A stretch of DNA of 40,981 bases from an uncultured bacterium (GTDB taxonomy: Bacteria; Bacillota; Clostridia; Lachnospirales; Lachnospiraceae), in contig CANCXX010000041.1 of assembly GCA_947381965.1 (NCBI GenBank), forward strand, positions 1 through 40,981. The letters run 5' to 3'. Each line of letters opens with the position of its first letter. Position 1 is the first letter of the stretch. Positions 5,084 through 22,130 of the stretch are shown here, one piece after another. The position numbers and the translations under genes are program-made. The notes beneath the pieces were generated by a model. It was not told the DNA's origin, did no database searches, and saw only the letters and a list, made by a program, of their open reading frames with translations.

Positions 5084-5112
5084 ATGCTACCATGCTCCAA
5101 AATAGAAGTCAA
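5084..5112 (-). promoter_or_regulatory. Sigma-A promoter of the amino acid importer operon
   Basis: On the minus strand TTGACT (5107-5112) is separated by 17 bp from TAGCAT (5084-5089), which is preceded by TGG as an extended -10. The -35 box overlaps the stop codon of the upstream coiled-coil gene. This suggests that the importer is transcribed separately from the DUF5717 module. Confidence 0.6.
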
Positions 5113-6293
5113 GAGAAATCCTTTTCGTACTCTCCCACAATATTTAAAATTTCCTTTGCATATTTCGGATAAGTTTCCACTAAATCCTTAATTTCCGCCT
5201 GGGCTTTTCCAGCAATCATTTCCTTATTGTAATCCATCCGGCGTCTTAGAGACTGCCTCCGTATAATCAGGTTATGCCGGATTTCCACCATTTCCTTTTT
5301 GTCAAGAATCGCTGCTGTCTGATGAAGCCAGATCATAGGATCCTTAACCTGGTATCTGCGCAAAACCCGTAATAAATCCTGCTGACACTGATCCAGCTGC
5401 CATTCTGCCTGCTGGAAACTGCGCCGTTCCTCCTTTTCTTCCTGGTACTGCTGCCAGGTCTTTACCAGCTCGCCTGCACTTTGTACACGGTATTTCATAT
5501 AAAGATATTCCAACAAATTTGTATTATTCACATATCTGATTTTCACTGTATTTTGCAGCCGTATAATACGGCCAATTCCGTTTTCCACCCTCTCCAGTTC
5601 CTTTACGGAGTCATTATGTTTGACAAAAATTGCCGTAATCGCCGCTGCTCCTACTGCTGCCGCAGCCAAATATCCCGGTTTGGTATTCATTTCAAAGCCA
5701 TATTGTAAAACCAAAAGCGCAAGAATACACACAATGACCGCCACGGTACATACAATGGTCATGGCCCTTGTATCTGCTATTATATGACGCAGCTCGCTTC
5801 TCCTGAAATGATACGCCTGCCTCTCCCCATCCAGCTTCCGCAAGTCCCGTTTTACCAAATCCTGATACTCTTCCGCCTGAATAAGCTTTTCATAGCTTTC
5901 CTGATACTCTGCTTCCAGCCGTTCCATCTGTCGGTATTTGTCCTCACTCATCCGATGTTTTCTGTTCTTATACCCGGACTGCTGCTCTTCAAGCGTTTCT
6001 ATTTTTCTGGCACAGGTTTCCAGTTCCTCCCTCTCTTCCTCTGGCAGCGCCTCGATTTCTTCCATATCCTTTAGGTAAGAAGTAACCATATTATATTCAA
6101 ATTGAAGATTTTCCAGCTCTCTGGACGCCTCTGCAATCTGCTCCAGACACCCCTTCACATACTCCTGACGCTGTTCCTTATCGTTAATCTGCAAATCTTC
6201 TCTGTCATAAACGATTTGGTTCCAGTCCTCCACTTCATATACCGGCTCTTCTGTTTTTTTCTTTTTTCCAAATAGCTTTTTAAATAAATTCAT
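5109..6293 (-). CDS. Coiled-coil protein with a central two-helix membrane hairpin, unknown function
   Basis: I do not recognise a characterised family. The 394-residue protein begins with a Lys-rich stretch (about residues 5-13). Acidic coiled-coil segments follow at about 40-165, then two hydrophobic helices at about 177-198 and 207-224 separated by a short loop, then further coiled coil and helical sequence to the C-terminus. Both soluble arms would face the same side, probably the cytoplasm, because there is no signal peptide. The start at 6293 has AGGGAG about 7 nt upstream. It is the last gene of a four-gene set with DUF5717, DUF5716 and the TPR-like protein. This position suggests a membrane anchor or scaffold for that system, which is inference only. 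Confidence 0.75.
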   Translation of the reverse strand: MNLFKKLFGKKKKTEEPVYEVEDWNQIVYDREDLQINDKEQRQEYVKGCLEQIAEASRELENLQFEYNMVTSYLKDMEEIEALPEEEREELETCARKIETLEEQQSGYKNRKHRMSEDKYRQMERLEAEYQESYEKLIQAEEYQDLVKRDLRKLDGERQAYHFRRSELRHIIADTRAMTIVCTVAVIVCILALLVLQYGFEMNTKPGYLAAAAVGAAAITAIFVKHNDSVKELERVENGIGRIIRLQNTVKIRYVNNTNLLEYLYMKYRVQSAGELVKTWQQYQEEKEERRSFQQAEWQLDQCQQDLLRVLRRYQVKDPMIWLHQTAAILDKKEMVEIRHNLIIRRQSLRRRMDYNKEMIAGKAQAEIKDLVETYPKYAKEILNIVGEYEKDFS

Positions 6294-6344
6294 TTCCATC
6301 TCCCTGCATACCACTGCGGTTCTGCACCAGCAAATCATCTATTT

Positions 6345-7178
6345 TTATTGTTCAACCATCTCCCGGTACTCTTCCTTTTTCCGGGAAATTATTTTATCAA
6401 TGTCCTCATAATAGGAAGCCACATTTCCTTCTTCCTTATAAATTTTCAGCGCCGTAAGCATCCGGTTATCCTGTCCGGCCTCAAATCCGCCTTTTGCCGC
6501 CTCAAAACGCTTTTCCACCAAAAGGGAAAGTTCCAGATATTCCCCATGCTCCGCCATAAAAGAAATGTAAGAATTTTCGTGCAGATACAGCCTTTGTGCA
6601 GTAAGATACTGAATGCCGGATTCCTGTTCTCCTGACATATCATAAGCGCGTTTAAAATATTTCGCTGCCATTTCAAATTCAAAAAGTCCTGCGTATGCGG
6701 TTCCCATATTATGGTAAATGGAAGGCTTTAATCCGCTTTCCGTATCCGGAAGTTCTCTGCACAGATTATCGTATTCCTCCAGCGCCTGTCCCAATTTACG
6801 GTTTTTCAACAAAAAATCCGCCTGTTTTTTCTTTTTTTCATAATCTGTAAGTCCCACATTGCTCTGGAGAATTTCCTCAATTTTCTTTTTTTCTCTTGGC
6901 GTGCAATAATTCACATAATCCAAAATCATTCCGACAAAAGTTCCTGCCTGACTCCCTCTGTTAAAAAGTCCAAGAAGCTGGTGGCCCAATTCTGAAAGGC
7001 CACATTCTTCGTCCAGCCACCTGGCAAGCTTTTTATCCATAATATCCCCGTTTATTATAAAAGGATTACTGGCAAAAAGATAACAAAGTTCCTCTACACA
7101 ATACACGTTGGTACACGCATTTTCAAGATAATAGGGATTTTTTGCATACTTTCCCGTACATAAAATCATTCTGCCCAT
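6345..7178 (-). CDS. TPR-like helical repeat protein, unknown function
   Basis: A soluble protein of 277 residues with no signal peptide. Residues about 116-185 look like tetratricopeptide helices, with typical TPR spacing of Ala, Gly, Tyr and Phe in YHNMGTAYAGLFEFEMAAKYF. The N-terminal 60 residues contain several Cys and hydrophobic residues (LCTGKYAKNPYYLEN, VYCVEELCYLF). The start at 7178 has AAGGAG about 10 nt upstream. The gene begins 17 nt after the DUF5716 stop, so it is almost certainly co-transcribed with it. A protein-protein adaptor role is plausible from the TPR fold. No enzyme motif is visible. Confidence 0.75.
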   Translation of the reverse strand: MGRMILCTGKYAKNPYYLENACTNVYCVEELCYLFASNPFIINGDIMDKKLARWLDEECGLSELGHQLLGLFNRGSQAGTFVGMILDYVNYCTPREKKKIEEILQSNVGLTDYEKKKKQADFLLKNRKLGQALEEYDNLCRELPDTESGLKPSIYHNMGTAYAGLFEFEMAAKYFKRAYDMSGEQESGIQYLTAQRLYLHENSYISFMAEHGEYLELSLLVEKRFEAAKGGFEAGQDNRMLTALKIYKEEGNVASYYEDIDKIISRKKEEYREMVEQ

Positions 7179-7195
7179 AAAGCTGCCGCTCCTTA

Positions 7196-8503
7196 CTAGA
7201 CGAAAATCGTCTGTGTCCAGGCCTTTCCGCTGGACTTAAATAACTCTCCAAATCCCATATCTTCCACTGTTATTTCCGCCCTGCTAACCGCCGTCATCTC
7301 CACATGAACGCTGAGTCTTGTCGTTCTGGGCGGTCTTTCTGGCAGTCCTTCCAAAGTAACGGCTTTATTTGTCACGCTGCCGCCAGTTAAGGGGGTGATT
7401 ACAAAGTCCACCGTATTTCCCTCTTCCAGAATAATATCAAAATCAGCGGAAGTTTCATACCAATTGACTCCGGCATCCAAAACCGCGTAATAGGAATCTT
7501 CCCCACCGCGCAGGACTTTCATGCCGATATTGGACTTTAATTTATCTGCGCCCAGATAAACATATTCCTGCCACTCCTTACCAGGATTTAGGCGTTCAAG
7601 CATCCCATAACAGGCCCCTTTACTATAAAGATTGTTTCCCTGGAAAACCCGCCGGTTTTTGCACATAATCCTTAATGAGTCTTTGGGCCATCCTTCTTTA
7701 AAACCATCCCCCAGCAAAAACACCGTGGAAACATTTTTGTCCTCCAGGCTTTTTTTTACAATTCCTGAAAATAACAAGTCAAGCTCCGCCATCTGCTGTC
7801 TTTTTTGTCCCTCATCCTCCTGCCACACTCTCCGCTCCATTTCAGGATAATTTTTCTGCTCAATAAAAATCACCTTTGGCGTAGTCTTCTTATTACATTC
7901 CAGACGCATGGTCTTTAGTTCGCTGTCATATTCATATATCATTACATCATTCTGCCTAAGTTCCCAACTCTGGTGCATGGTAAAGGCATAAAAACTTTCC
8001 GCATGGCTCTGAAAATGAATATGCTGTGCTTTCAGCTGAAGCCCTGCTGCCACTTTTCCCAGCACATCCACAATCCGGGGGGTAAGCTCCTCCACAGTAA
8101 ACATAAAAGCCTCTATCTGGTTAAAAGAAATCCGTATATTAAGAAGCGACAGACTTCGTTTAACAAATAAGGTAAGAAGGGCAACCGGGTCAAAGGCTTC
8201 TCCCTCCACCATTACATCTTCTCCCCGTTCAGCAAGGGTAAGCAAGTCTTCCACCAGAATCCCATTTTCTTCCCTGGCGAATTTAATGGCCTCTTTTCCA
8301 TAATACCACTGCCCTACTCCGCTCCTTTTGCAAAGCAGCGCCGGAATATTATACTGTTCTGTGCCTGCTACCGCAGAAACAGTTTCCGGCTCAGTCTCTT
8401 CCAGTCCACAAAAGCTGATTTGGGCAAAGCTCCGCCCAAGATCATATCCTACGGCCACCTTTTTACTGTTTTTTTTTCCAAAAAAGTTCTGCCCCTGAAA
8501 CAT
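7196..8503 (-). CDS. DUF5716-type protein with a divergent Hsp70/actin-like fold
   Basis: I assign this 435-residue protein to DUF5716 from memory of its usual pairing with DUF5717. The sequence itself reads like a shortened Hsp70. VAVGYDLGRSFAQISF (residues 16-31) resembles the phosphate-1 loop. FQSHAESFYAF (about 164-174) sits where Hsp70 has its NEPTAAAL helix. VFLLGDGF (261-268) resembles the adenosine-loop strand and is followed by an SKGACYGML helix. From about 340 a beta-rich tail resembles the Hsp70 substrate-binding beta domain, including LEGLPERPPRT and EITVEDMGFG; the helical lid is missing. The phosphate-2 loop DLGGGT is replaced by YEYDSE, so ATP hydrolysis is doubtful. The gene lies 9 nt after the DUF5717 stop with a GGAGG site. 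The Hsp70 relationship is my inference. Confidence 0.75.
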   Translation of the reverse strand: MFQGQNFFGKKNSKKVAVGYDLGRSFAQISFCGLEETEPETVSAVAGTEQYNIPALLCKRSGVGQWYYGKEAIKFAREENGILVEDLLTLAERGEDVMVEGEAFDPVALLTLFVKRSLSLLNIRISFNQIEAFMFTVEELTPRIVDVLGKVAAGLQLKAQHIHFQSHAESFYAFTMHQSWELRQNDVMIYEYDSELKTMRLECNKKTTPKVIFIEQKNYPEMERRVWQEDEGQKRQQMAELDLLFSGIVKKSLEDKNVSTVFLLGDGFKEGWPKDSLRIMCKNRRVFQGNNLYSKGACYGMLERLNPGKEWQEYVYLGADKLKSNIGMKVLRGGEDSYYAVLDAGVNWYETSADFDIILEEGNTVDFVITPLTGGSVTNKAVTLEGLPERPPRTTRLSVHVEMTAVSRAEITVEDMGFGELFKSSGKAWTQTIFV

Positions 8504-8512
8504 CCAAACCTC

Positions 8513-11500
8513 CTAACGCATGGAAAAAAGTTCCCGGACAAGAAAATCCTGTTCAAAGTAATCGTCCAAAAGTCTTTCCATGGTTTCATAATCATGGAGA
8601 TTTCTTCCGATGGAAATATCATTCAACAGATTATACCTGTTTTCTCTCTGCTCTATCCCGGTATCATTGCGGCTTAGGGTTCCGCTTTCCGTCAGGTGCT
8701 CTTTTCCATCCTCCATCTCTGTTATATAATACTGCAAATGCTCTCCAAAGAAAAGAATAAATTGTTTTACACAAATACCGCCAAACATATCTTTCATTTC
8801 TTCCTTTATATATTCCTCCCTGGCGCCATCCTCTCTCTCAGGCAAATAATGAATAAACGCTTTATTGCCCTCCCGCACCCGGTATTCTATCATCGTCTTG
8901 TCCGCAAACCGCCGCATAGAAGCAATGTTTTCAGAATATTCCTTAAAGAAAGGGAAATATTTATTTTCAGCCAGTATCTCCTTTAGGAAAACAACTAAAA
9001 AGCGCAGCACTCTCTCGTTTAATTCTTTTTTATTCTCTGAATAATATTTGGTATAAGCAAGCCTGCATATAAAAGGTATCCCATCTTCCTGCCTTTCAAT
9101 AACCCTCTGCATATCCTCCAGGACAAACGCATCCAGCGGCTTGTCCTTCACAAAATATTCATAAGCGCACTGGGCAAGAACCGCCGATTCCACCACTGTC
9201 CGGGCTCCCCCGGATACATAACGTTTAAAAATTTCCGCCCGCTCCCACACAAAAGCGCCTGTATAAAGCATCTGTACCAAAAGCCGCTCCGAAAGCCCAT
9301 AGGTATCTATCCCAAAAGCTTCCGCTGCCTTCCACACATCCCGCATTTCCTTGCTGGTTCCCTGAAAATACCGGCATAAATATTCCAGCAGATTTTCATC
9401 ATATTTGCCCGCCCGAAATGCAAGAAAGGCAAGCTTCGTCATCGTTACATCTTCTTCTGTCCCTTCAAAAGCAAGAAGTCTGCTGCATAACCTGACAATA
9501 ATCTTCGCTTCCACGCCCTCGCATCCACGCATTTTAATCCAGTCATATGCTTTTTCATACATTCCCCGTAAAATCAGGAAACGAAGCACCTGTGAAAAAC
9601 ACTGGTTATGTATCTGCAAAAGGGAAAGCTCCTTTAAACACTCGTCCAACTCTTTCATTCTGTCACTGTCATAAAAGAAATTAAGCAGCCGCATGCGTAT
9701 TTCCTTTTGGACTTCCTCTACAACCTCCGGCGCATTCACCAGACGTTTCATGTATTCCACATTCTCCGCACTGACTTCGGCAATTTCCCTTCCACTCTCG
9801 CACAGCCATAGGTCAAAATGTACACAACCCAAAATAGAGGGGGCGATCAAAAACGCCAGCTTATCCGGCATAAGAAGAACCTCCAGGGTATACTCCTCTT
9901 CCCTGCAATATCTGTTTCCCTTTGCATCCTCCAGTAAAAGCCGGAAGTCATTGCCATAAACAGGAAAAAAAGCTTCCCTTCCTGAAACCGGATAAACCGT
10001 TTCTTCATATTCTTTATCATAAACCAGAATAACCTTTTTTATGTCCTCCCGCATTACTTTTAAGTGCTGCATAAACAACGCCGTTGACAGCCCGACGGCA
10101 ATTTCGTCTGTAAGCATTACCGGCGTAATCAGATTTTTGTAAAGGTATGCCAGGTATTTATTGCTGCGTCCCTTTAAAAGCTGGGCCATTACAAACCGTT
10201 CTATCTGTTCCCGGTAGCTTTCATACAGTTCCGGGTACTGCTCCCGTTTTTCATGAATGTAAGCATAAAGAAAGGAATTGCGCAGACTGTCGAGACTGCT
10301 GTCAAAAGCAAAATACATAAGCACAATTTTAGGGATTTCCCGGTCTTTTTCAAGAGGCAGGGACATCATATAATACTCATACAGTCTTGTTATCCGCAGC
10401 TCTTTTTCTATTCCTTTTTCATACCATAAAAAGCTTTCCTCATCTGTCCTGTTTCCTTTAATTAACAGTGTGCAGATCGTCTGCAACACTTCATCCTCTG
10501 GCAGCAGCTGATAACAGCTTTTTAATATGGCAAACAGCCTGCCGGAAAAGTTTTTCACCCTCTGGGCAAGATAAACCACCTGACCAATCACACCGGTCGT
10601 TAGTAATTCTTTTTTGGCCGCATAAGATAAAATCTGCAGTTCAAAACTGTTAAGACGCATAAGCAGGGCAGGGTTAGCTGCAATTAAATTCCAGGCTTCA
10701 ATATAAAGTACAGGACTTTTGCACCCCTGCCGGAACTGCTCCTCCAAAACAATCCATTTTCCGGAGGGACTTCTCATATAATCTTCAGACAAATATAAAA
10801 GCAGCCATGCAATTCTCCAGTTGTCGGAATTTTGGGTAAAAATCCGTTCCACCTGCCCCGCCACTTCGTCAATATAAGTCTCCCGTCTGTTAAGCAGCGT
10901 GGTCAGATATAAATAATAACAGTAAATGGCCGGAACAAAATTTTCTTCCACCGCCTCTTTTGTCTGACACAGCAGCCAGTCCGCCTCTTTGTCCCTCTCT
11001 TCCGTAATTAAAAGCTGGGCTTTAAACAGCTTTATGGAAACATCCTCATCGTCTATCTGCGTCAGATTTTCCACCAGTTCCCCGGTTTCCTTCATCCAGG
11101 ATGAAGCGCTGATTTTCTTTGTGCGGAAAGCCTCATAATACTGCATCAATTCCATAATGGCATGCTTTTTCTGTCTCCGTACTCCGGCTTTTCCCATTTT
11201 GGAATGCTTATTTGCCACTGTAATTTGAGCTGTAAGACAGACATAAGGATTTAAAAGACGAATCATGCCGTAATTTCTTCCGCTATGGAGCTTTTCCGCA
11301 GATATGTAAAAAGGAAGCCTGCAGCTATTGCCAAGAAAATCCTCCTCACGGATCTTTTCTTTCTCCAGCCGGATAAAATCCCCTTCCTTTTCCAGCGAAA
11401 ACTCAGAATACCCCCATCCATTACGGTTAATTACCAGGCGTCCTTCCAGCTTATCATCTGAATTATCCATACGGATATCTTCATTTTCCAAAAAGAATTC

Positions 11501-12079
11501 CACCTTCTGCTTTTTTCTGATTTCCAGAAGGAATTCTTCTACCTTTTGTTCCCCTCTGCTTCCTCCTGCCAGCCCTCTGTAGGCGCCAAGGTACTGCCTG
11601 CTTATTCCCTCAAATATGCGCACAAAATCTTTGGAGTAAAACAGCCTGACTGCCTCCCCCCAGTTTGTGCGGGCCAGATTCGTAAAATGAAACAGATTTT
11701 TAATATCCCCCAGCTCAGATTCAAGTTTTCCGGTCACAATCGTTACATGATATGGGATATAATACTCTCCATGATTGGAAATGACGCGAAATTCTCCTTT
11801 TAAGGTATCCCCCTCCGTCATTGCGGATGCGTCAAAATAATAGGCAATTTCTTCTTTTCTCCCCAGAAATTGTTCTGTCAGACAGTGCATCCGCAGTCTC
11901 GTGGAGGAAACCATTCCTTCTGTCACTTCGTTTTCAGGGCCTGTAATCACAAAACTTCCTTCATAGTTCTCTCCCTCATGAAGCTTAAGCTCAATAACAG
12001 GATCTGAAAAATCCAGCGAATAGATTTCTTTATTGAATTTTCCCTGCAAAATTTTATCTACTGCATCCTGCACTGCCAT
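8513..12079 (-). CDS. DUF5717-type giant protein: N-terminal beta domains and a long helical solenoid
   Basis: A cytoplasmic protein of 1188 residues without signal peptide or membrane helix, which I place in the DUF5717 family. Two beta-rich, Ig-like regions lie at about 20-130 (LKLHEGENYEGSFVITG, then GEYYIPYHVTIV) and 185-300. From about 310 to the end it is nearly all helical, like a TPR or clathrin-type solenoid. A beta-rich insertion near 660-760 (KVILVYDKEYEETVYPV, then LAFLIAPSILGCVHFDLWL) interrupts it. I see no catalytic motif. The ATG at 12079 has GGAGGAAC directly upstream and a promoter lies at 12119-12148, making this the first gene of the module. A large scaffold or client-recognition subunit for the Hsp70-like partner is a reasonable guess, not shown. 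Confidence 0.8.
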   Translation of the reverse strand: MAVQDAVDKILQGKFNKEIYSLDFSDPVIELKLHEGENYEGSFVITGPENEVTEGMVSSTRLRMHCLTEQFLGRKEEIAYYFDASAMTEGDTLKGEFRVISNHGEYYIPYHVTIVTGKLESELGDIKNLFHFTNLARTNWGEAVRLFYSKDFVRIFEGISRQYLGAYRGLAGGSRGEQKVEEFLLEIRKKQKVEFFLENEDIRMDNSDDKLEGRLVINRNGWGYSEFSLEKEGDFIRLEKEKIREEDFLGNSCRLPFYISAEKLHSGRNYGMIRLLNPYVCLTAQITVANKHSKMGKAGVRRQKKHAIMELMQYYEAFRTKKISASSWMKETGELVENLTQIDDEDVSIKLFKAQLLITEERDKEADWLLCQTKEAVEENFVPAIYCYYLYLTTLLNRRETYIDEVAGQVERIFTQNSDNWRIAWLLLYLSEDYMRSPSGKWIVLEEQFRQGCKSPVLYIEAWNLIAANPALLMRLNSFELQILSYAAKKELLTTGVIGQVVYLAQRVKNFSGRLFAILKSCYQLLPEDEVLQTICTLLIKGNRTDEESFLWYEKGIEKELRITRLYEYYMMSLPLEKDREIPKIVLMYFAFDSSLDSLRNSFLYAYIHEKREQYPELYESYREQIERFVMAQLLKGRSNKYLAYLYKNLITPVMLTDEIAVGLSTALFMQHLKVMREDIKKVILVYDKEYEETVYPVSGREAFFPVYGNDFRLLLEDAKGNRYCREEEYTLEVLLMPDKLAFLIAPSILGCVHFDLWLCESGREIAEVSAENVEYMKRLVNAPEVVEEVQKEIRMRLLNFFYDSDRMKELDECLKELSLLQIHNQCFSQVLRFLILRGMYEKAYDWIKMRGCEGVEAKIIVRLCSRLLAFEGTEEDVTMTKLAFLAFRAGKYDENLLEYLCRYFQGTSKEMRDVWKAAEAFGIDTYGLSERLLVQMLYTGAFVWERAEIFKRYVSGGARTVVESAVLAQCAYEYFVKDKPLDAFVLEDMQRVIERQEDGIPFICRLAYTKYYSENKKELNERVLRFLVVFLKEILAENKYFPFFKEYSENIASMRRFADKTMIEYRVREGNKAFIHYLPEREDGAREEYIKEEMKDMFGGICVKQFILFFGEHLQYYITEMEDGKEHLTESGTLSRNDTGIEQRENRYNLLNDISIGRNLHDYETMERLLDDYFEQDFLVRELFSMR

Positions 12080-12118: not shown

Positions 12119-12148
12119 AGTATACCATCATTCCCCATATTTCCGCAA
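12119..12148 (-). promoter_or_regulatory. Promoter of the DUF5717-DUF5716 module
   Basis: TTGCGG (12143-12148) and TATACT (12119-12124) are 18 bp apart on the minus strand, with TGG immediately before the -10 (extended -10). The predicted transcript starts about 35 nt before the DUF5717 start codon. Confidence 0.6.
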
Positions 12149-12882: not shown

Positions 12883-14598
12883 TTACTGTGCCCGCAAAAG
12901 GGCCTCCTCCAGACTTTCCGCTCCAATAATATTCAGCATAAAATCCACATTGTCCATCCCCTGTTCCGTATCAATTTCCTTAAATATTTTATAGATAAAC
13001 TTAGGTGTATGGTCAATTTTATATATACCAAAGGAAAGTCCCTGTTTAACCTCTTCCATGGCGTCTGTCTGTCTGTTCATTATAAACGCTTCTATATAAG
13101 GATTGGCATCAATAATATAATAGCAGTAGGCAAAAGCCGCTGCCTGCAGTTTTTCTCCTGAGTTTGAGGTAAATCCAAGCTCTGTAACAGAAATACTCCG
13201 CACATTACCGCTCCGGTCAAGATATTCCTCCTGTTTGAGGAAATCCGTAACCGTACTTAAATTCATAGGCGTAAGCACCGGTGCATCCATGGTCTTATCA
13301 TAAGTCTGGTTCCAATAATTTACCCTGGTAAGAGGCGCAGGATAGGGATGAATTGCCACCCCCCAGTCATAATTTCCCTTCTGCCTGGCGGCCTTGTTAA
13401 CAGCTTCAAGCATATCCCTGGCATTAAAAAATTTGTCATTTTTTCCTTCATTGTCATTCCAGTCATGGTCAATGCTTAAATACACCTTAGCTCCCGCAAA
13501 ATTGCGTTTGGCTGCATTGTAAAAAACACGGAGAGCCTTTTCAAATTCAACGGCATACATAGTAATATCACTGGTATCCATAAAATTCCATAATTTATGC
13601 TGGTTGATTTCATTGGCAATGACCCAGCTTGATACAAGACCATATTCACCGCCTGAATAACGTTCCGCTAAAAAACAGGCTATCGCCTCAAGGTACAGAC
13701 ATCCTTCTTCTTCCGCACAATTAAAGGCATAGTAATAAGCGCCTGACTTTTTATTCCTTGAAAGCGGATGAATCAGCTCCGGATGTTCTTCATTCCAGTC
13801 GTTTAAAATAATTGCCGTTGTAAGCATTCCTTTCGCTGTAAGGTAATAGAACAGATTGTCATAGCCTGCAATGGCAGCGCCGTTAAACTGATAAGTTTTT
13901 CCTCTGTAATCATAAAAAATTGTCGGATATGTATCGTCTGTTGTCTCCCCAAGGATAATAGACAGCGGAATATTATAAATTGCATGCTGTACACCCAATT
14001 CCTCCAGCTTGGGAGTTCCCAAAAGCTCCGGGTCCAGCAGCAGTCCTTTTTTTGACCTGCTCTCCGGATAATCGTCGGTATTGCGTGCAATCACTTCCGG
14101 ATTATTTATATAACTGCTGGAAGAAACCGGAATATATTCCCCATGCACAAGTAACGCCGGTACAAACTGCCTGAAAAGCTGCTCTTCCTTATAGGTCCAC
14201 TGAAATTCACAATTCACCGCCTTTTCCATACTGGCAATTGGCTTCCTTTCAAAATCACCAAAGGCGTCCGTATCCTCATAGACTTCAAACTCAAAAAGGT
14301 AAACCAGCGCATCATCGCTTCCCGGAATATCCGGAAGCGTCAAAGTCAGCCCCACTGTCTTTCCGTCTTCTTTAATAGAGCAGTCCGTAATCTCCCCATA
14401 AGATATAAGCTCCCATTGGGAAAGCGTCACATTCCCTCGTGTCAGACTGTTTATCCTTCCCTCTTCCCCATCCTCCGCGCTTAAATTCTCCGAAGAAGCG
14501 GCAAGGGACTTTCCCTGGCATCCCCGAAGTATCAGCACAATGCCGGCAAACAGGAGAATGCCGCATATAAACAGCGTTATCTTTTTTTTCTTATCCAA
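12883..14598 (-). CDS. DUF5722-type glycoside hydrolase-like protein, membrane-anchored or secreted (copy A)
   Basis: A 571-residue protein starting at a TTG at 14598, with AGGAGG 7 nt upstream. The nearby ATG is in another frame. The N-terminus has a Lys-rich start and a hydrophobic helix ending LRGC, a poor lipobox, so it is either a lipoprotein or a single-pass membrane protein. Beta-rich sequence covers about 55-165 and a TIM-barrel-like region runs from about 185. The motif ANEIN with Glu330 and SVTELGFTS with Glu473 match the acid/base and nucleophile positions of clan GH-A glycosidases. It starts 14 nt after the BMP lipoprotein gene and shares its transcript. Its substrate is unknown. 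It is clearly homologous to copy B at 16092-17753 but diverged. Confidence 0.8.
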   Translation of the reverse strand: MDKKKKITLFICGILLFAGIVLILRGCQGKSLAASSENLSAEDGEEGRINSLTRGNVTLSQWELISYGEITDCSIKEDGKTVGLTLTLPDIPGSDDALVYLFEFEVYEDTDAFGDFERKPIASMEKAVNCEFQWTYKEEQLFRQFVPALLVHGEYIPVSSSSYINNPEVIARNTDDYPESRSKKGLLLDPELLGTPKLEELGVQHAIYNIPLSIILGETTDDTYPTIFYDYRGKTYQFNGAAIAGYDNLFYYLTAKGMLTTAIILNDWNEEHPELIHPLSRNKKSGAYYYAFNCAEEEGCLYLEAIACFLAERYSGGEYGLVSSWVIANEINQHKLWNFMDTSDITMYAVEFEKALRVFYNAAKRNFAGAKVYLSIDHDWNDNEGKNDKFFNARDMLEAVNKAARQKGNYDWGVAIHPYPAPLTRVNYWNQTYDKTMDAPVLTPMNLSTVTDFLKQEEYLDRSGNVRSISVTELGFTSNSGEKLQAAAFAYCYYIIDANPYIEAFIMNRQTDAMEEVKQGLSFGIYKIDHTPKFIYKIFKEIDTEQGMDNVDFMLNIIGAESLEEALLRAQ

Positions 14599-14612: not shown

Positions 14613-15941
14613 CTATCTAAGGTGCAGGAAACACACATCTCTGTCCCACACTTTACAGGCCGTCAGAGGTCCTGCCTCTGCGTCAGGCAGTGCAAAATAA
14701 CCGCCTACTGCTGCCGTCGCTTTCCCATCTATATTCTCATTGTAATAATTCACTGTAACCGCTGTATCCGGGTGTTCACTGATATCATCTGATATATAAA
14801 CCTTTCCCTCTCTTAAGCTGGCGCGGATACGGAAATAATCCTTTGTGGATACATTTTGGAACCGCCACGCATTTCCTGTTAGGGGAAGCTCTATACATTC
14901 TTTTTCCGCCCCATAAGTCATAACACATCCTGCCATATCTTCCGGCCAGCTTCCTCCATGGGCAAAAAGCTCATCAAGGGCAACGATAACGGAAGACTGG
15001 ACGCCTTTCATCGCTGAGGTCAGAACATGCTTTGAAATCCCGCTCTGATCCACATCCGCCCCAATCAACATTCCATTACATTTTTCAGCTGATGCCAATA
15101 CAGACTGATAGATGGAACCGCCACAGACAAAAATAATTTCTGTGCCTGCCTCATACCAGCTGCGGGAAGTCTTTTTAATCTCCGGCGAGGGAGAAAACGT
15201 ATCCGCATACCAATATTCCACACAGACTTCATCACAAATATCCAGATCCATGGCCGCATCGTCAATTCCCTGAAGATAACCATACCCGTACCTGCATATC
15301 GTTGGCAGCTGCTCCCCTCCAATAAACCCAAGCTTCCGGTATCCTTCCAGCACTGCCATATATCCGGCCAGATAGCCGGCCTCCTCCTCGTGGTAGGTGA
15401 TACAGTGCACATTGGGAGCTATCACCATCTCCATGCCGGAGGCATCCCTTGGCACACCATCCAGTAAAAGGAATGTGATATCGCCGTACCTTTCCTGAAG
15501 ACTTCCCACTGCCTGTTCAAAATGGGAACCTGCGCAGATAATCAGCTTCGCCTGGTTTTCAATGGCATATAAAACCGTGTCTTCATATGCCTCCGGGGAG
15601 TCAGATTCTGTACTGTAAAAGGAATAGGAAACTCCTGCTGCAAGTGCATATTCTTTGGCTCCTTCCAGCGCTGCCTGATTATATCCGTTATCCATCACAG
15701 AACCTGTATCAGTTACCAACGCCACCTGACCGCCCACTTCCTTATAATCATGATAATAATCCACCCCTATACCGGAAGCGGATTTTCTTATGCCATTTCT
15801 AAAAAAACGTCCTGCAGAAGGCATGTCCGCTATGCTGCCACTGCTGTCCAGCCCATTGCCAAATGTACCGCAGCCTGCGCATAAAAAGGCAAAAGCAGCC
15901 AGAACGAAATATGTTTTTGGATATTGTAAACATCTCTTCAT
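14613..15941 (-). CDS. BMP-family (PnrA/Med-like) substrate-binding lipoprotein
   Basis: A 442-residue lipoprotein with lipobox LCAGC (Cys24). The motif ALVTDTGSVMDNGYNQAALEGA matches the N-terminal strand and helix of basic membrane protein (BMP) family receptors, which often bind nucleosides. LIICAGSHF, GEQLPTICRYGYGYLQGI and LIGADVDQSG follow the family order. The start has AAGGAG about 9 nt upstream and the gene has its own promoter. No ABC ATPase or permease for this receptor is encoded in the window, so it is an orphan here. It lies between two DUF5722 genes inside the inserted cassette. It could feed a transporter encoded elsewhere or act as a sensor; the sequence does not decide. Confidence 0.87.
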   Translation of the reverse strand: MKRCLQYPKTYFVLAAFAFLCAGCGTFGNGLDSSGSIADMPSAGRFFRNGIRKSASGIGVDYYHDYKEVGGQVALVTDTGSVMDNGYNQAALEGAKEYALAAGVSYSFYSTESDSPEAYEDTVLYAIENQAKLIICAGSHFEQAVGSLQERYGDITFLLLDGVPRDASGMEMVIAPNVHCITYHEEEAGYLAGYMAVLEGYRKLGFIGGEQLPTICRYGYGYLQGIDDAAMDLDICDEVCVEYWYADTFSPSPEIKKTSRSWYEAGTEIIFVCGGSIYQSVLASAEKCNGMLIGADVDQSGISKHVLTSAMKGVQSSVIVALDELFAHGGSWPEDMAGCVMTYGAEKECIELPLTGNAWRFQNVSTKDYFRIRASLREGKVYISDDISEHPDTAVTVNYYNENIDGKATAAVGGYFALPDAEAGPLTACKVWDRDVCFLHLR

Positions 15942-16091: not shown

Positions 16092-17753
16092 TTATTCGGA
16101 CTGCACGACGCCATCGCCGCTTCTGGTCCAGACAATGTTTTCACCGATCATTTCATCAATATCCATACCGATAATCTCTGAAGCCCGCTCCTTTGCCTGC
16201 GCCTCATTCTCTGTTCCCAGATTTTTATAAATATCAAAGGCCGGCTTTCTGTTTCCATCTAAATCATAAAGACCAAGGGCCAGATGGCTTTCCATTTCAT
16301 GGGCATCATCTGTCTGACGGAATAAAATAAATGAATCTATTTCCGGGATTGATGCTGCCTTTAAATAACCATAAGCAATAGACGCTTCCTGCTTGGAGTC
16401 GCCAAAACTGGATGTGTATCCGATTTCCGCAAGAGAAATGCTTCTTACCTCCCCTGCGGGGTTTAAAAATTCGTCCCGCTTCATGTAGTCAATCAGAATA
16501 TCAATATTCTGCATAGTGATATAAGGCGTTGTAAGTCCCTCTTTCACCCATACTGCCGGTCCATTCCACGCATAAGGATCATATAAAGGGGAATTATAGG
16601 GATGATAGGAAAGTCCCCAATCAATATTTCCCTCACGGTTCATATAGTAATTGAATCTGTCCAGGTAACTCTTTGCAAGGAAGCTTCCCGGATTGGACTT
16701 CCGGTTCCACTCCTGATCAATGGAATTATAAATCCGTACATTGGCATTGCTGCTTTTCATTTCATTATATATAATGCGGAAGGCCTTTACATATGCTCCC
16801 ACATTAAAATCCAGGGAGTCTGAAGTGCTGTACCACCAGGAAGTCCGGGCATTTACCTCATTTCCCAGGATCCAGTTATCTACCTGCCCACAGTCAGAAT
16901 TTCCGTTATAGCGCTGTCCCAGAAAGGCGCCTACTGCCTTTAAATGACTGGTTCCGGCTGCCTCTTCCACATTCAGCGCATATCCCGGAGCCGTATCCCC
17001 GTCCAGAGCCATTGGATGAATCAGATCTTTAGAATAAAGTCCTGTTCCATCATTTAAAATAACAATTGTAATCTGTATTCCTTTTTCATTTAGCAATTTT
17101 GCAAGTGCATCGTAATTGGAAATTACTTCATTATCAAAATAATAGGTCTGACCATTGTAGTCAAAAGCAATGGCTTCCGGCACTGAAGCATCCGAACAGA
17201 TTTCATCCACGCTCATATTGTAAACCACCTGCTGGATACCAAGCTCTTCCATATCCCCATTGTGGATTTTTTCGATGTCCAGCAAAATTCCCTTTATGCC
17301 TGTCTCCGCGCGGGGAGGCGTTTCTCCTGCAAGGGTTTCCGGGTTGGTTATGTAATGCTCGTCGCTGACCTGATACATCTCTCCGCCCCGCTTTACCGCC
17401 ACCAGAAACTTACGGCTTAAATTGGAATCCGCTGAATTATAATTAAGGGGAAAGCTTACGGAAACGGACTTTTCCGCATCCACTTTTGCCACAATGGTTC
17501 CTTCCGCCCCATCTTCATAAACTTCATTTGCATAAATATAATATTTGCCATCATCACTTGACGGGACACTGGATGCGCTGATTTCACATACCACATCTGT
17601 TTCTGAGATCAGACAGGACTCAATTGCCACCGGCCGGCCGGCTGCCTGCACACACATAGGCTCCATACCGCCAATGAATCCGCTTCCCATACCCAAAACC
17701 ACTGCTGCCGCTGATGCTGCAATTAATGCCATTACTTTTTTTCTTTTGCCCAT
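16092..17753 (-). CDS. DUF5722-type glycoside hydrolase-like secreted protein (copy B)
   Basis: A 553-residue secreted protein. The start at 17753 has AGGAGGAAGT directly upstream; the longer frame to 17798 is unsupported. A signal peptide (KRKK then an Ala-rich core) probably ends near CVQAA at about 38. A beta-rich domain (about 40-135) precedes the TIM-barrel-like region, which begins GIKGILLDIEKIHNG near 153. Glu299 in LGNEVN and Glu443 in SLAEIGYTS match clan GH-A catalytic positions. SYHPYNSPL corresponds to IHPYPAPL in copy A. It has its own promoter at 17869-17897 and its own terminator, so it is transcribed apart from the other two cassette genes. The carbohydrate target is unknown. 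Confidence 0.82.
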   Translation of the reverse strand: MGKRKKVMALIAASAAAVVLGMGSGFIGGMEPMCVQAAGRPVAIESCLISETDVVCEISASSVPSSDDGKYYIYANEVYEDGAEGTIVAKVDAEKSVSVSFPLNYNSADSNLSRKFLVAVKRGGEMYQVSDEHYITNPETLAGETPPRAETGIKGILLDIEKIHNGDMEELGIQQVVYNMSVDEICSDASVPEAIAFDYNGQTYYFDNEVISNYDALAKLLNEKGIQITIVILNDGTGLYSKDLIHPMALDGDTAPGYALNVEEAAGTSHLKAVGAFLGQRYNGNSDCGQVDNWILGNEVNARTSWWYSTSDSLDFNVGAYVKAFRIIYNEMKSSNANVRIYNSIDQEWNRKSNPGSFLAKSYLDRFNYYMNREGNIDWGLSYHPYNSPLYDPYAWNGPAVWVKEGLTTPYITMQNIDILIDYMKRDEFLNPAGEVRSISLAEIGYTSSFGDSKQEASIAYGYLKAASIPEIDSFILFRQTDDAHEMESHLALGLYDLDGNRKPAFDIYKNLGTENEAQAKERASEIIGMDIDEMIGENIVWTRSGDGVVQSE

Positions 17754-17868
17754 ACTTCCTCCTAATTCCAGTTTTGCATCTGCTCTTCCAGATACCATTT
17801 AATATTCTATATGGTATAAAGTGCAGCGCTCTTTTAACACTGTTCCTCAAAATAATGTATTAGAGATT

Positions 17869-18713: not shown

Positions 18714-20861
18714 TTATTGGGTAAGCAGCATCATAATCTCATTGCTTCGTGCAACAAACTTGCTCATTGCTTCCGGCTCAAGAGGGGCATGCTGTAAAAG
18801 CGCCAGGTCATAGAGCTGCTCGCAAATCATATCCATATGCTCTCCCTCCGGCTCTTTCATCAGGCGTTCTACCAGCGGATGGTTGGCATTTAATACCAGA
18901 GTTTCCCCTTCCTTTCCCATATCTCCCATATCCATCCCCGGCATAGAATACATTCTCATCATATCCTGCATTCTTCTGCTTTCCTCAGACAATGTAATCA
19001 GGGAGGAAATCTTCTCATTTTTCAGCTTTTCGACCTTTACGGCAAGCTTATCATTATTGAGAACCTTCTTCATAACCTTACCAATGGATTCCGCCGCTTC
19101 TTCCAGTTCCTTTTGGGCGTCTTCTCCTGCTTCATCCCGGAAGGTGTCTGTCAAATCCGCATCAATTCTCTGGAACTTAATCCCTTCATTCTTTGCCTCC
19201 AGCTGGGAGATAAAGGGCTGGTCAATATTGTGGGTTAAGATGACAGCGTCCATGCCGGCAGCCTTAAACATTTTAATGTATTGTCCCTGCTGTTTTTCGT
19301 CTGTCACATAGTAGATAACCTTTTTCGTTTCCTCTTCTTCGTCATCCTCTGAACCTATCACATTGCCGTCCGCATCAAGAACCTCCCCATCAGATGCTTC
19401 TCCGTCTCCGGCCTCTGCCTCATTTTCCGTTTCTTTTTCTTCCTCCGCCTGCCCACTCTCAGCTGTCTGTGTATTTTCTCCGCCGTCGGTTTCCTGTGCT
19501 TCTTCTTTATTTTCTGCCTCTTCCGGGTCAGTCTTTTTCACCTCAAGACATTCAGGGAGAGTAAGATATTTGCCCTCCAGGTTTTTGAAAAGAATGTAGT
19601 CTGTCATCTTTTCACAGAACTTATCGTCTTTCAGGCATCCAAATTTAATAAATGGACTAATATCATCCCAGTACTTGTCATATTCTTCTTTTTCCGTCTT
19701 GCACATGCCGGAAAGCTTATCCGCCACTTTCTTTGTGATATAGTCGGAAATTTTCTTCACAAATCCATCGTTCTGTAATGCGCTTCTTGAAACGTTAAGG
19801 GGCAGATCGGGACAGTCGATTACTCCCTTTAACAGCATCAGGAATTCAGGGATTACTTCTTTAATATTGTCGGCAATAAATACCTGATTGTTGTATAACT
19901 TAATTACGCCCTCAATGGATTCATATTCCATATTGATTTTGGGGAAATACAGTATTCCTTTTAAATTAAAGGGGTAATCCATATTTAAATGTATCCAGAA
20001 CAAAGGCTCCTTGTAATCCTGGAATACCTTTCTGTAAAATTCCAGATATTCCTCTTTGGTGCAGTCGTTTGGGTGCTTTGTCCATAATGGCGCAGTTTCG
20101 TTTAAAAGCTCCGGACGTTTGATAATCTTATACCTTAACTTGTCCTCTTCCTTTTCCGGTTTGATTTCTTCCACCACTGTATCGGTATCCAGTTTTTCTT
20201 CCGCGTCAATGGTCTGGGTATCGGTGGTATTTTCCTTGGAAAGGTAAATTTCCATGGGCATAAAGGAACAATACTTTTTGATAACTTCCCTTGCCTTATA
20301 TTCATTGCAGAATTCCAGCACATCTTCATTGATAAAAAGGGTAATAGTCGTTCCTACTTCCGTCCGATCCCCTTCCTTCATATCAAACTCTGTGCCGCCG
20401 TCGCACTCCCAATGAACAGGCTTTGCATCCTTCTGCCATGACAGGGTGTCGATATGCACTTCATCAGACACCATAAACGCAGAATAAAATCCAAGTCCGA
20501 AATGTCCGATTATCTGGTCTTCATTGGTCTTATCTTTATATTTCTCAATAAAATCTGTTGCGCCGGAAAAGGCAATCTGGTTGATATATTCTTCCACCTC
20601 GTCCGCTGTCATTCCTATACCGTTATCATTAAATTTCAGTGTTTTCTCTTCCGGGTTTACCAGTACCTGAATTTTCCCCTTATAATCTTCCGACAGGGAA
20701 TATTCTCCCATCATATCCAGCTTTTTCAGTTTGGTAATGGCGTCACAGCCATTGGATATCAGTTCCCTGAAAAAGATATCATGGTCTGAATACAGCCATT
20801 TCTTGATAATCGGGAATATGTTTTCACTGTTGATAGATAAACTTCCGTGTTTCTCTGACAC
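18714..20861 (-). CDS. htpG: Chaperone HtpG (bacterial Hsp90)
   Basis: ATP-dependent cytosolic chaperone, 715 residues, longer than the roughly 620-630 usual for bacterial HtpG. The start is a GTG at 20861 with AAAGGAG about 9 nt upstream. The N-terminal ATPase pocket is intact: ELISNGCDA (Glu33 and Asn37 positions), NDNGIGM, and FGLGFYSAF for the lid. A charged linker lies at about 208-240. The middle domain contains LPLNVSRSALQ with the conserved catalytic-loop Arg. Residues about 442-513 are a Glu/Asp-rich insertion of about 70 residues just before KVIYYVTDE, absent from standard HtpG. The C-terminal dimerisation region is present. A CIRCE element lies upstream, implying HrcA repression and heat induction. 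Confidence 0.96.
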   Translation of the reverse strand: MSEKHGSLSINSENIFPIIKKWLYSDHDIFFRELISNGCDAITKLKKLDMMGEYSLSEDYKGKIQVLVNPEEKTLKFNDNGIGMTADEVEEYINQIAFSGATDFIEKYKDKTNEDQIIGHFGLGFYSAFMVSDEVHIDTLSWQKDAKPVHWECDGGTEFDMKEGDRTEVGTTITLFINEDVLEFCNEYKAREVIKKYCSFMPMEIYLSKENTTDTQTIDAEEKLDTDTVVEEIKPEKEEDKLRYKIIKRPELLNETAPLWTKHPNDCTKEEYLEFYRKVFQDYKEPLFWIHLNMDYPFNLKGILYFPKINMEYESIEGVIKLYNNQVFIADNIKEVIPEFLMLLKGVIDCPDLPLNVSRSALQNDGFVKKISDYITKKVADKLSGMCKTEKEEYDKYWDDISPFIKFGCLKDDKFCEKMTDYILFKNLEGKYLTLPECLEVKKTDPEEAENKEEAQETDGGENTQTAESGQAEEEKETENEAEAGDGEASDGEVLDADGNVIGSEDDEEEETKKVIYYVTDEKQQGQYIKMFKAAGMDAVILTHNIDQPFISQLEAKNEGIKFQRIDADLTDTFRDEAGEDAQKELEEAAESIGKVMKKVLNNDKLAVKVEKLKNEKISSLITLSEESRRMQDMMRMYSMPGMDMGDMGKEGETLVLNANHPLVERLMKEPEGEHMDMICEQLYDLALLQHAPLEPEAMSKFVARSNEIMMLLTQ

Positions 20862-20957
20862 GATAAATCACTCCTTTTTCTCTGTTTTTTCAATTTCCGT
20901 TAAAGCCTTTATCATACCCTTCCAAAGGCCTGGCACAAACTTTTTAAGCTAAACACA

Positions 20958-20986
20958 AGTGTAATTCTCTTTTGACAAAAAGTCAA
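20958..20986 (-). promoter_or_regulatory. Sigma-A promoter of htpG
   Basis: TTGACT (20981-20986), 17-bp spacer, TACACT (20958-20963) on the minus strand. It lies 7 bp downstream of the CIRCE element. Confidence 0.65.
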
Positions 20987-20993
20987 GACAAAA

Positions 20994-21020
20994 TTAGCAC
21001 TCATTTAAAAAGAGTGCTAA
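20994..21020. promoter_or_regulatory. CIRCE operator (HrcA binding site)
   Basis: A perfect consensus inverted repeat, TTAGCACTC with a 9-bp spacer and GAGTGCTAA. It lies immediately upstream of the htpG -35 box and downstream of the PrsA-like gene. HrcA would repress htpG from here under normal temperature. Confidence 0.97.
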
Positions 21021-21074
21021 TAATTGTGCAAAAACGCTGTATTTTCAAGCCTTTCCACATTTCTAAAATTTTTA

Positions 21075-22130
21075 TTAACTAAAAAACTGATTATAAACAT
21101 CAAAAAAATCTTTTGTTTTTACTTCATCATTTTCTACAAAGGAAACGGTACTCCACAGCTCTTCGTTTAAGGTTCTTGCAAGGGATGTTACAAAAGCGTC
21201 ATATTCCTGTCCAAATACCTCTCTTTTACGCTTTTCCACAATTTTAATCTTGTTGGCATCTGTTTCTTCCCGGTTAAAAGTACTTAAGCATTTAATAATA
21301 TTGTACCCATTTTCCGTTTCCACTATGTCACTTATTTCATCTGTTTCCAGATTGAAAGCCGCATCCTCAAATGCCTGCTCCGTCTCTCCTTTGCCAAAAG
21401 AATAGGTTCCCTTCTCCCCCTCACTATACTGCAACACCAGTTCTTCAAAGTCACTGCCCTCTTCCCGCGCAAGGTTCAGCAGTTCTTTTGCTCTCTCTTT
21501 TGCATCCCGTTTTGCGTCTTCCGAATACTCCACCCTCCTGCCTGCGCCGTCTGTGTCGCTGGTTTTGATCAGAATATACCGCACAGTAATGGTTCTTGCC
21601 TCATCATCGCTGATTTCAGGATTAATATCTTTTATAATATATTCATACACTTTATTGGCAAGGGCAAATTCTTCATACAGCCCCTCAATAATTTCCTCTG
21701 TGGCCTGCATTGCCTTTTTTTCTTCTTCATTCAAAGAGCCAAAATAAGCGGCGGCAGCCTCCCTTGCCGTCTGTAATTCGCTGTCGCTTAAAAAAACATG
21801 ATACTGCTCCGCCAAAAGATTCATGGTTTTTACCTGGGCAAGCTGAGCTAACACGGTATCTTTGATACTTTCTTCAAGTGTGACCCCATTTAATTCCGTC
21901 TCCCATATCTTTTTACCATAAACGCTTTCATACTGGTCCTGGGTATTAACCAGATAAACCATAACTTCCGGCAAAGTGCAGGACATGCTTTCAATCCTGA
22001 AAATCTCATCCCTGCCAAATCCAGTGGTCAGCACAAGTCTGGTGTCCGTATCCATTTTCTGGCAGCCCGTCAGTGCAAAAAGAAGCATCCCCCAGTAAAA
22101 CAACAAAGCCCGCCATTTTTTGTTTTTCAT
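21075..22130 (-). CDS. PrsA/SurA-like lipoprotein with a parvulin-type domain lacking both usual histidines
   Basis: Extracytoplasmic folding factor candidate, 351 residues, with lipobox LTGC near residue 23. A SurA/PrsA-like helical N-domain is followed by a parvulin-like domain at about 180-285. The domain has the expected pattern: ITVRYILIKTSD, the long helix AKERAKELLNLAREEGSDFEEL, KGTYSFGKGE and ENGYNIIKCL. Where active parvulins read SHIL and GYHII, this protein has RYIL and GYNII, so both canonical histidines are missing. Isomerase activity is therefore uncertain, and a holdase-type role is possible. The ATG overlaps the stop of the upstream flavoprotein gene by 4 nt. Confidence 0.85.
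   Translation of the reverse strand: MKNKKWRALLFYWGMLLFALTGCQKMDTDTRLVLTTGFGRDEIFRIESMSCTLPEVMVYLVNTQDQYESVYGKKIWETELNGVTLEESIKDTVLAQLAQVKTMNLLAEQYHVFLSDSELQTAREAAAAYFGSLNEEEKKAMQATEEIIEGLYEEFALANKVYEYIIKDINPEISDDEARTITVRYILIKTSDTDGAGRRVEYSEDAKRDAKERAKELLNLAREEGSDFEELVLQYSEGEKGTYSFGKGETEQAFEDAAFNLETDEISDIVETENGYNIIKCLSTFNREETDANKIKIVEKRKREVFGQEYDAFVTSLARTLNEELWSTVSFVENDEVKTKDFFDVYNQFFS

Follow-up and report, generated by a model that had tools for sequence, protein, structure and literature searches.

The DUF5717-DUF5716-TPR module of Lachnospiraceae as a candidate remainder of a multi-Hsp70 operon

What might be the role of a set of closely spaced genes whose two largest products belong to DUF5717 and DUF5716? 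The question is raised by four minus-strand genes in a 40,981-nucleotide stretch of DNA from an uncultured Lachnospiraceae bacterium, the whole of which we call the window. The original prediction read their products as a new machine with a chaperone-like core, a client or scaffold, an adaptor and a membrane anchor, and described both families as lacking an assigned function. The latter point agrees with the literature searched, in which no function is proposed for either: our search, which reached a minority of the papers in subscription journals and no bioRxiv preprints, returned no paper on DUF5717 and, within the same limits, one unrelated paper on DUF5716. Hence a module present in nearly every sampled genus of a dominant gut family stands in that literature without a proposed function.

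All four open reading frames were found at the positions first given for them (Table 1), and from the 5' end they follow the order DUF5717, DUF5716, TPR protein and coiled-coil protein. As measured from the ORFs, the first two gaps are the claimed 9 nt (DUF5717-DUF5716) and 17 nt (DUF5716-TPR); the third has the claimed 51 nt if counted from the ATG at 6293 and 6 nt if counted from the longest ORF. This internal ATG is probably the start of the coiled-coil protein, being backed by relatives (alignment A5) and preceded by a purine-rich, Shine-Dalgarno-like stretch. The promoter claimed in front of the operon finds no firm confirmation: a weak -35/-10 pair (8 of 12 matches by eye) falls below the threshold of our scan, which returned 33 promoter-like sites, on both strands and many of them within genes, with 16.1 expected. 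The promoter/terminator scan is non-discriminating.

Table 1. Features of the locus, in coordinates of the window
Feature	Position	Strand	Evidence
DUF5717 protein, 1188 aa	8513..12079	-	PF18984 1049 bits, PF18983 350 bits
DUF5717 residues 19-291	11207..12025	-	two PapD-like/ASH/MSP-resembling beta-sandwich domains, helices between
DUF5716 protein, 435 aa	7196..8503	-	DUF5716_C 357 bits
DUF5716 NBD-like part, residues ~14-310	7574..8464	-	VIA-align to 7rax; interval lengths
DUF5716 SBD-beta-like part, residues ~314-435	7199..7564	-	alignment to 7kru; alignment to DnaK SBD region; hhalign to c4
TPR protein, 277 aa	6345..7178	-	c7 HMM E 8.9e-25; TPR_2 5.7e-5
Coiled-coil protein with membrane hairpin	5109..6293, ORF open to 6338	-	c10 HMM E 5.9e-47
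Possible promoter, weak -35/-10, 18-nt spacer	12119..12148	-	by eye; below scan threshold

Further upstream the window encodes two paralogous DUF5722 proteins (12883-14598 and 16092-17798) on either side of a substrate-binding protein of the PnrA-like kind (14613-15941). Some 6.6-10 kb upstream of the module, at 18714-22130, are the genes for HtpG (715 aa) and a PPIC-type peptidyl-prolyl isomerase. A function in common with the flanking genes was considered and set aside; ValS (in 12 of the 78 Lachnospiraceae loci compared below), a CobD/HisC-like aminotransferase (in 17) and PurB-like proteins (in 41) were judged to be chromosomal context, all these flank names having been assigned by reading.

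Distribution and conservation of the module

With each genus of the window's family represented by a single genome, DUF5717_N is found in 117 of 120. Most carriers have one match; a second match, where listed, covers another part of the profile and lies either next to the first or on another contig. In a sample of the order, which we take to be Lachnospirales, DUF5717_N is found in 75 of 146 genomes and the profile of the distant solenoid protein in 76 of 146, with 15 of the matching genomes in each search belonging to the window's family. Outside the order DUF5717_N gave one weak match in the class sample, and DUF5716_C was detected in 10 of the 291 class genomes, the same 10 that have a strong DUF5717. 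A wider distribution of the solenoid was rejected: outside the order, profile A1 gave just short, weak matches, both in the class sample (7 of 291 genomes, best 34.2 bits) and in the phylum sample (3 of 249, with 21 bits at best), and all were read as generic solenoid similarity.

We then compared 78 Lachnospiraceae loci, comprising the window, 36 named contigs, 40 one-per-genus regions hand-picked among the 117 carriers, chiefly those with enough contig on either side of the gene, and one further locus (L145). The genes for DUF5717, DUF5716 and the TPR protein are co-oriented neighbors in all 78, one of which has DUF5716 and TPR in a single frame. The median gaps are 17 nt (DUF5717-DUF5716) and 12 nt (DUF5716-TPR), with 68 and 70 of 77 gaps, respectively, being no longer than 60 nt. 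The coiled-coil gene comes next in 61 of the 78 loci, namely in all 37 of the window and named contigs and in 24 of the 41 others. Across the 120 family genomes it has 53 clear matches and one weak match, 49 of the clear ones sharing a contig with the DUF5717 match (hand count); the other 66 genomes, which include incomplete ones, gave no match. Hence, of the conserved co-occurrence expected for all four genes, the part concerning the first three holds throughout and the part concerning the membrane gene does not: the module has a three-gene core, to which a membrane gene is added in some genomes. Where computable (14 pairs per gene), dN/dS of the four genes ranges from 0.018 to 0.094, values to be read with the caveat that several dS exceed 1.5, close to saturation, and that some pairs gave no value.

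The single-frame locus (L094:6315-8444) encodes 709 aa; either the two genes are naturally fused or the stop that separated them has been lost. It is probably what caused the first iteration of the TPR HMM to drift into Hsp70s; TPR counts come from a model built without fused-frame rows, together with the c7 model introduced below. The membrane hairpin claimed for the coiled-coil protein (409 aa, nothing over the Pfam cut-off) is recovered by hydropathy as a hydrophobic region at residues 185-240, and it is the only clear hairpin among the four products: DUF5716 and the TPR protein have no hydrophobic stretch by the same measure, and DUF5717 has a single marginal one at 734-760.

Predicted folds of DUF5717 and DUF5716

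The 1188-residue protein is made up of DUF5717_N and the DUF5717 C-terminal domain (Pfam, 1049 and 350.2 bits against a cut-off of 25 each). Its Ig-like/solenoid reading is borne out by an AF2 model (pLDDT 85.9, pTM 0.59) composed of beta-sandwiches and alpha-solenoids, in which PapD/ASH-like sandwiches at the N-terminus are predicted to be fused to the solenoids. Among the fold families compared, the closest matches of the sandwiches are PapD/ASH/MSP-like; the solenoid parts are barely covered by the fold comparison.

The 435-residue protein scores 357.4 bits against DUF5716_C (gathering score 34.7), its sole Pfam match up to E 0.05; it thus lies below the cut-off of the Hsp70 family PF00012, and a PF00012 search of the window's own genome listed no match at the window. 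Its Hsp70-like character, proposed from the outset, is supported by the predicted fold, for which Ssz1 and DnaK tie among the structures compared: a two-lobed, actin-like nucleotide-binding domain (NBD) fold is followed by the beta part of a substrate-binding domain (SBD-beta). The NBD-like part superimposes on 7rax over 292 residues (rmsd 3.9, VIA-align), and the model aligns at near full length (residues 15-434) with 7kru. The SBD-beta-like part aligns with the SBD region of DnaK, matches c4, an Hsp70 considered below, in hhalign, and is present in all 34 rows of alignment A3, which also has many conserved positions outside the ATPase motifs. In a sequence search of the PDB, alignment A3 gave one match at E 0.5 and alignment A4 none. 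The helical lid (SBD-alpha) is absent, with DUF5716 stopping at the SBD-beta strands and residues 510-617 of the reference DnaK missing.

In the consensus of 75 of the 78 DUF5716 rows (three were dropped for length) the set of phosphate-1, phosphate-2 and adenosine motifs is not retained: nothing is left of the phosphate-2 and connect-1 residues, and most of what persists is the phosphate-1 Asp, present in the majority of rows. The interval that separates the phosphate-2 and adenosine motifs measures 59-87 residues in these 75 sequences, as against 133-152 in 15 c3 proteins (see below) and 143 in five DnaKs, so that the DUF5716 and c3 ranges do not overlap and the DUF5716 interval is about half as long, remote alignment inside a degenerate NBD being uncertain. 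Given that both the ATPase signatures and about half of this interval are lost, the claim that DUF5716 forms an active chaperone core finds no support. Nucleotide binding without hydrolysis may still be conceivable from the sequence, as the phosphate-1 Asp is mostly kept. That the protein is nevertheless an ATP-driven chaperone with an unconventional site seems to us improbable: this Asp, the low dN/dS and the predicted Hsp70 NBD fold are in its favor, but it has to contend with the missing phosphate-2 and connect-1 residues, the halved interval, and the fact that the GrpE protein of the related operon is missing from the same loci.

The main rival to the reading that we prefer is a purely structural one, in which DUF5716 would have lost client binding along with its ATPase and would serve as a platform in a membrane-proximal assembly, in the manner of the ASKHA-fold subunits PilM and GspL. 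The loss of the ATPase signatures and of part of the NBD, the many conserved positions outside the motifs and the membrane partner in part of the genomes are all consistent with such a role. However, the SBD-beta present in all 34 rows is not obviously needed by a mere platform, and no secretion- or pilus-like gene occurs among the larger gene clusters at the loci of other families or the five flank families counted, with a minority of the flank genes identified; we regard this alternative as doubtful.

A long Hsp70 operon in other families of the order

Many families besides Lachnospiraceae have a pair of genes, c2 and c1, as the counterpart of DUF5717, and the HMMs of c1 and c2 both match DUF5717 (2.5e-93 and 2.9e-47). 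By clustering the proteins of 23 loci (14 extended loci and 9 single stretches) we defined a long operon with the order c2 (~400 aa), c1 (~900), c0 (~558), c5 (~630), c3 (~530), c4 (~547), c6 (~692) and c7 (~387), followed in some cases by c10 (~380 aa). All 14 extended loci contain c0, c4 and c6, and likewise c5 and c3 if one diverged copy of each is counted. The c7 gene is clustered in 12 of them; G122 has a pair of shorter ORFs that match it, and the extended locus of G247 has no c7 match. The c2 part is present in 13, and that of the fourteenth (G170) lies on another contig. In a few genomes (G157, L135) c2 and c1 form one frame, and three loci of family f22 have a shorter combined gene, c16.

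Pfam identifies c0, c4 and c6 as HSP70 (one member each), in agreement with a PF00012 search of four long-operon genomes. By consensus the Hsp70 motifs are intact in c0 (21 rows), c4 (14) and c6 (14) and decayed in c3. HSP70 is combined with VWA in all 13 c6 proteins scanned (14 in total), and c5 is a helical protein ending in GrpE, which was detected in 13 of 14 scanned (15 in total) and is C-terminal in the member shown. The c3 protein is a diverged Hsp70, with a PF00012 match in 12 of 15 and a DUF5716_C match in 14 of 15, and its profile matches DnaK across NBD and SBD (E 8.5e-23). The lid region is absent in c0, c3 and c4, just as in DUF5716. A search for DnaJ/J-domains gave no match up to E 0.05 in the operon of the window or in 10 operon proteins of relatives.

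Several comparisons connect the two kinds of loci. The c3 HMM matches DUF5716 at 2.3e-44, as against just 9.8e-8 for c4 and no match for c0 and c6, and the profile-profile comparison of DUF5716 with c3 scores 100% (E 1.4e-46, 429 columns). The TPR protein, whose TPR_2 match (5.7e-5) is below the Pfam cut-off, has its N-terminal part in common with c7 (HMM 8.9e-25, alignment A6), and the c10 HMM matches the coiled-coil protein (5.9e-47). The c0, c5 and c6 HMMs found nothing below E 1e-3 in the 78 Lachnospiraceae loci; that of c4 matches 69 of them, in the window through DUF5716. In a tree of 86 rows, computed by a quick method with midpoint rooting and carrying the tool's long-branch warning, the 17 DUF5716 rows included (of 75) form one clade beside the c3 protein of family f4 (SH-aLRT 99), c3 itself not being a single clade; f4 (G122) is accordingly nearest to Lachnospiraceae in the c3 tree. 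The HMM equivalences, the DUF5716-c3 profile match and the placement in the tree together indicate that the Lachnospiraceae module is, as far as sequence comparison can tell, a version of the long operon in which c2 has been joined to c1, c3 persists, and c0, c4, c5 and c6 have disappeared from the locus. Given its spread over other families, we infer that the long form is ancestral.

The window's genome (G000) is the one Lachnospiraceae genome searched throughout for Hsp70s, and elsewhere the absence of c0, c4 and c6 refers to the locus alone. It encodes DnaK at a distance from the module (C4) and a second Hsp70 (C7), and its shorter PF00012 matches may be MreB-like. Profile A2, the N-terminal part of c5 without GrpE, gave one weak match in 291 class genomes, a sample containing no known c5 genome, and c5 was unmatched in 10 Lachnospiraceae genomes searched in full, a sample with no positive control. 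G122 (L117/L146) has c6 and c7 each divided over a pair of ORFs, together with a short c5 of 279 aa, which points to either decay in progress or assembly frameshifts.

In three loci of family f5 (L125, L129, L138) c1 is kept with no Hsp70 gene beside it, and c2 and c9 lie upstream in L125 and L129. The scaffold proteins of this family may hence rely on an Hsp70 whose gene is at another site, or do without one. The c9 product (L131:12328-13650 and relatives), encoded upstream of c2, is a membrane protein with a coiled coil. In G170 (L139/L140) and G210 (L137/L138) c2 is on a different contig from c1, and in G170 c2 forms a unit with c9 that is separate from the Hsp70 genes. Two of the 14 extended loci have c9, six have c10, none has both and six have neither; the other nine loci have no downstream extension, most being too short to judge c10. 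It is possible that c9 and c10 are alternative membrane anchors.

From the earlier interpretation, a conserved module that joins an Hsp70 relative with beta-sandwich/solenoid, TPR and membrane coiled-coil proteins survives, whereas its active core is not supported; and the genes taken for a self-contained four-gene machine form a real module but look like what remains of a larger operon. We consider it fairly probable that the module descends by reduction from a dedicated multi-Hsp70 operon and that DUF5716 acts without an ATP cycle, as a passive platform. By comparison, the long form encodes a PapD/ASH-like beta-sandwich protein, a solenoid protein, three competent Hsp70s, of which one carries a VWA domain, a degenerate Hsp70, a GrpE protein and a TPR protein, with a membrane coiled-coil protein added in some cases. 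In Lachnospiraceae c2 and c1 correspond to the fused DUF5717, and the competent Hsp70s and the GrpE protein are missing from the locus. DUF5716 represents the degenerate Hsp70, which has shed the ATPase signatures and half or so of the interval but retains SBD-beta, through which it could bind one constitutive partner or unfolded segments with no ATP cycle. DUF5717 would be the scaffold holding DUF5716. The TPR protein would serve as an adaptor, perhaps to a client or to the DnaK or HtpG of the cell itself, and the hairpin protein, in genomes that have it, would tie the assembly to the inner membrane face. The whole could thus receive clients passively and hand them over, like Ssz1 in the ribosome-associated complex. 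For the broader proposal, that Lachnospirales possess an order-specific multi-Hsp70 machine of their own, which gene loss turned into a nucleotide-independent core scaffold in Lachnospiraceae, we see the chances as evenly balanced. If the module is indeed left over from a dedicated Hsp70 operon, two DUFs come within testable chaperone biology. The gradation from several Hsp70s with their own GrpE down to a pseudo-Hsp70 scaffold would then form a natural series in which to ask what such a system is still capable of without ATPase and exchange factor.

Comparison with known systems

The long Hsp70 operon is apparently undescribed. No description of it or of the module was found in the searched literature, where the nearest parallel is the Hsp70/GrpE theme of the GAP1-N2 GTPase systems; the main text of a paper on DnaK paralogues (PMC11019930) contains neither "Lachnospir-" nor "Clostridia". 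According to the GAP1-N2 study (Kaur et al. 2020, PMC7159879), the GTPase is central to those systems and their occurrence is tied to a multicellular habit; a subset has an Hsp70 without a peptide-binding domain, and an FNIII protein is fused to TPR or DnaJ. The likeness lies in the combination of Hsp70, GrpE and a beta-sandwich protein, and it raises the alternative of a biological-conflict (defence) system, with a second Hsp70, TPR and membrane association as further common parts (PMC7159879). Consistent with this, c4 and c6 match one candidate-system model of PADLOC (8.7e-11 and 4.4e-7) and c7 matches three PADLOC models (best 4e-6), but we attribute these to general Hsp70 and TPR similarity, respectively. 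The four window proteins have no PADLOC match up to E 0.01, no GTPase family was found when 20 proteins of the window and 10 from the operons of relatives were scanned, and the module is near-universal in one family with low dN/dS, all of which makes a defence role very improbable indeed. The long form further differs from the GAP1-N2 theme in its four Hsp70 paralogues, its Hsp70-VWA fusion and a GrpE fused to a helical protein.

Ssz1 is the precedent for the passive platform: as described in PMC7083937, it has no lid and binds ATP that it cannot hydrolyze, yet nascent chains and a pseudo-substrate are bound all the same. However, Ssz1 belongs to the eukaryotic, ribosome-bound RAC, has the J-domain partner Zuo1 and binds ATP through its NBD, whereas the NBD of DUF5716 carries a deletion and the operon proteins scanned include no J-domain partner. 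With the DnaK-DnaJ-GrpE system the locus shares the intact motifs of c0, c4 and c6, the GrpE end of c5 and the Hsp70 descent of DUF5716. It differs from that system in lying apart from the cell's own DnaK, in having no J-domain protein among the scanned operon proteins, in the missing lid of c0, c3, c4 and DUF5716, and in its additional scaffold, TPR and membrane proteins.
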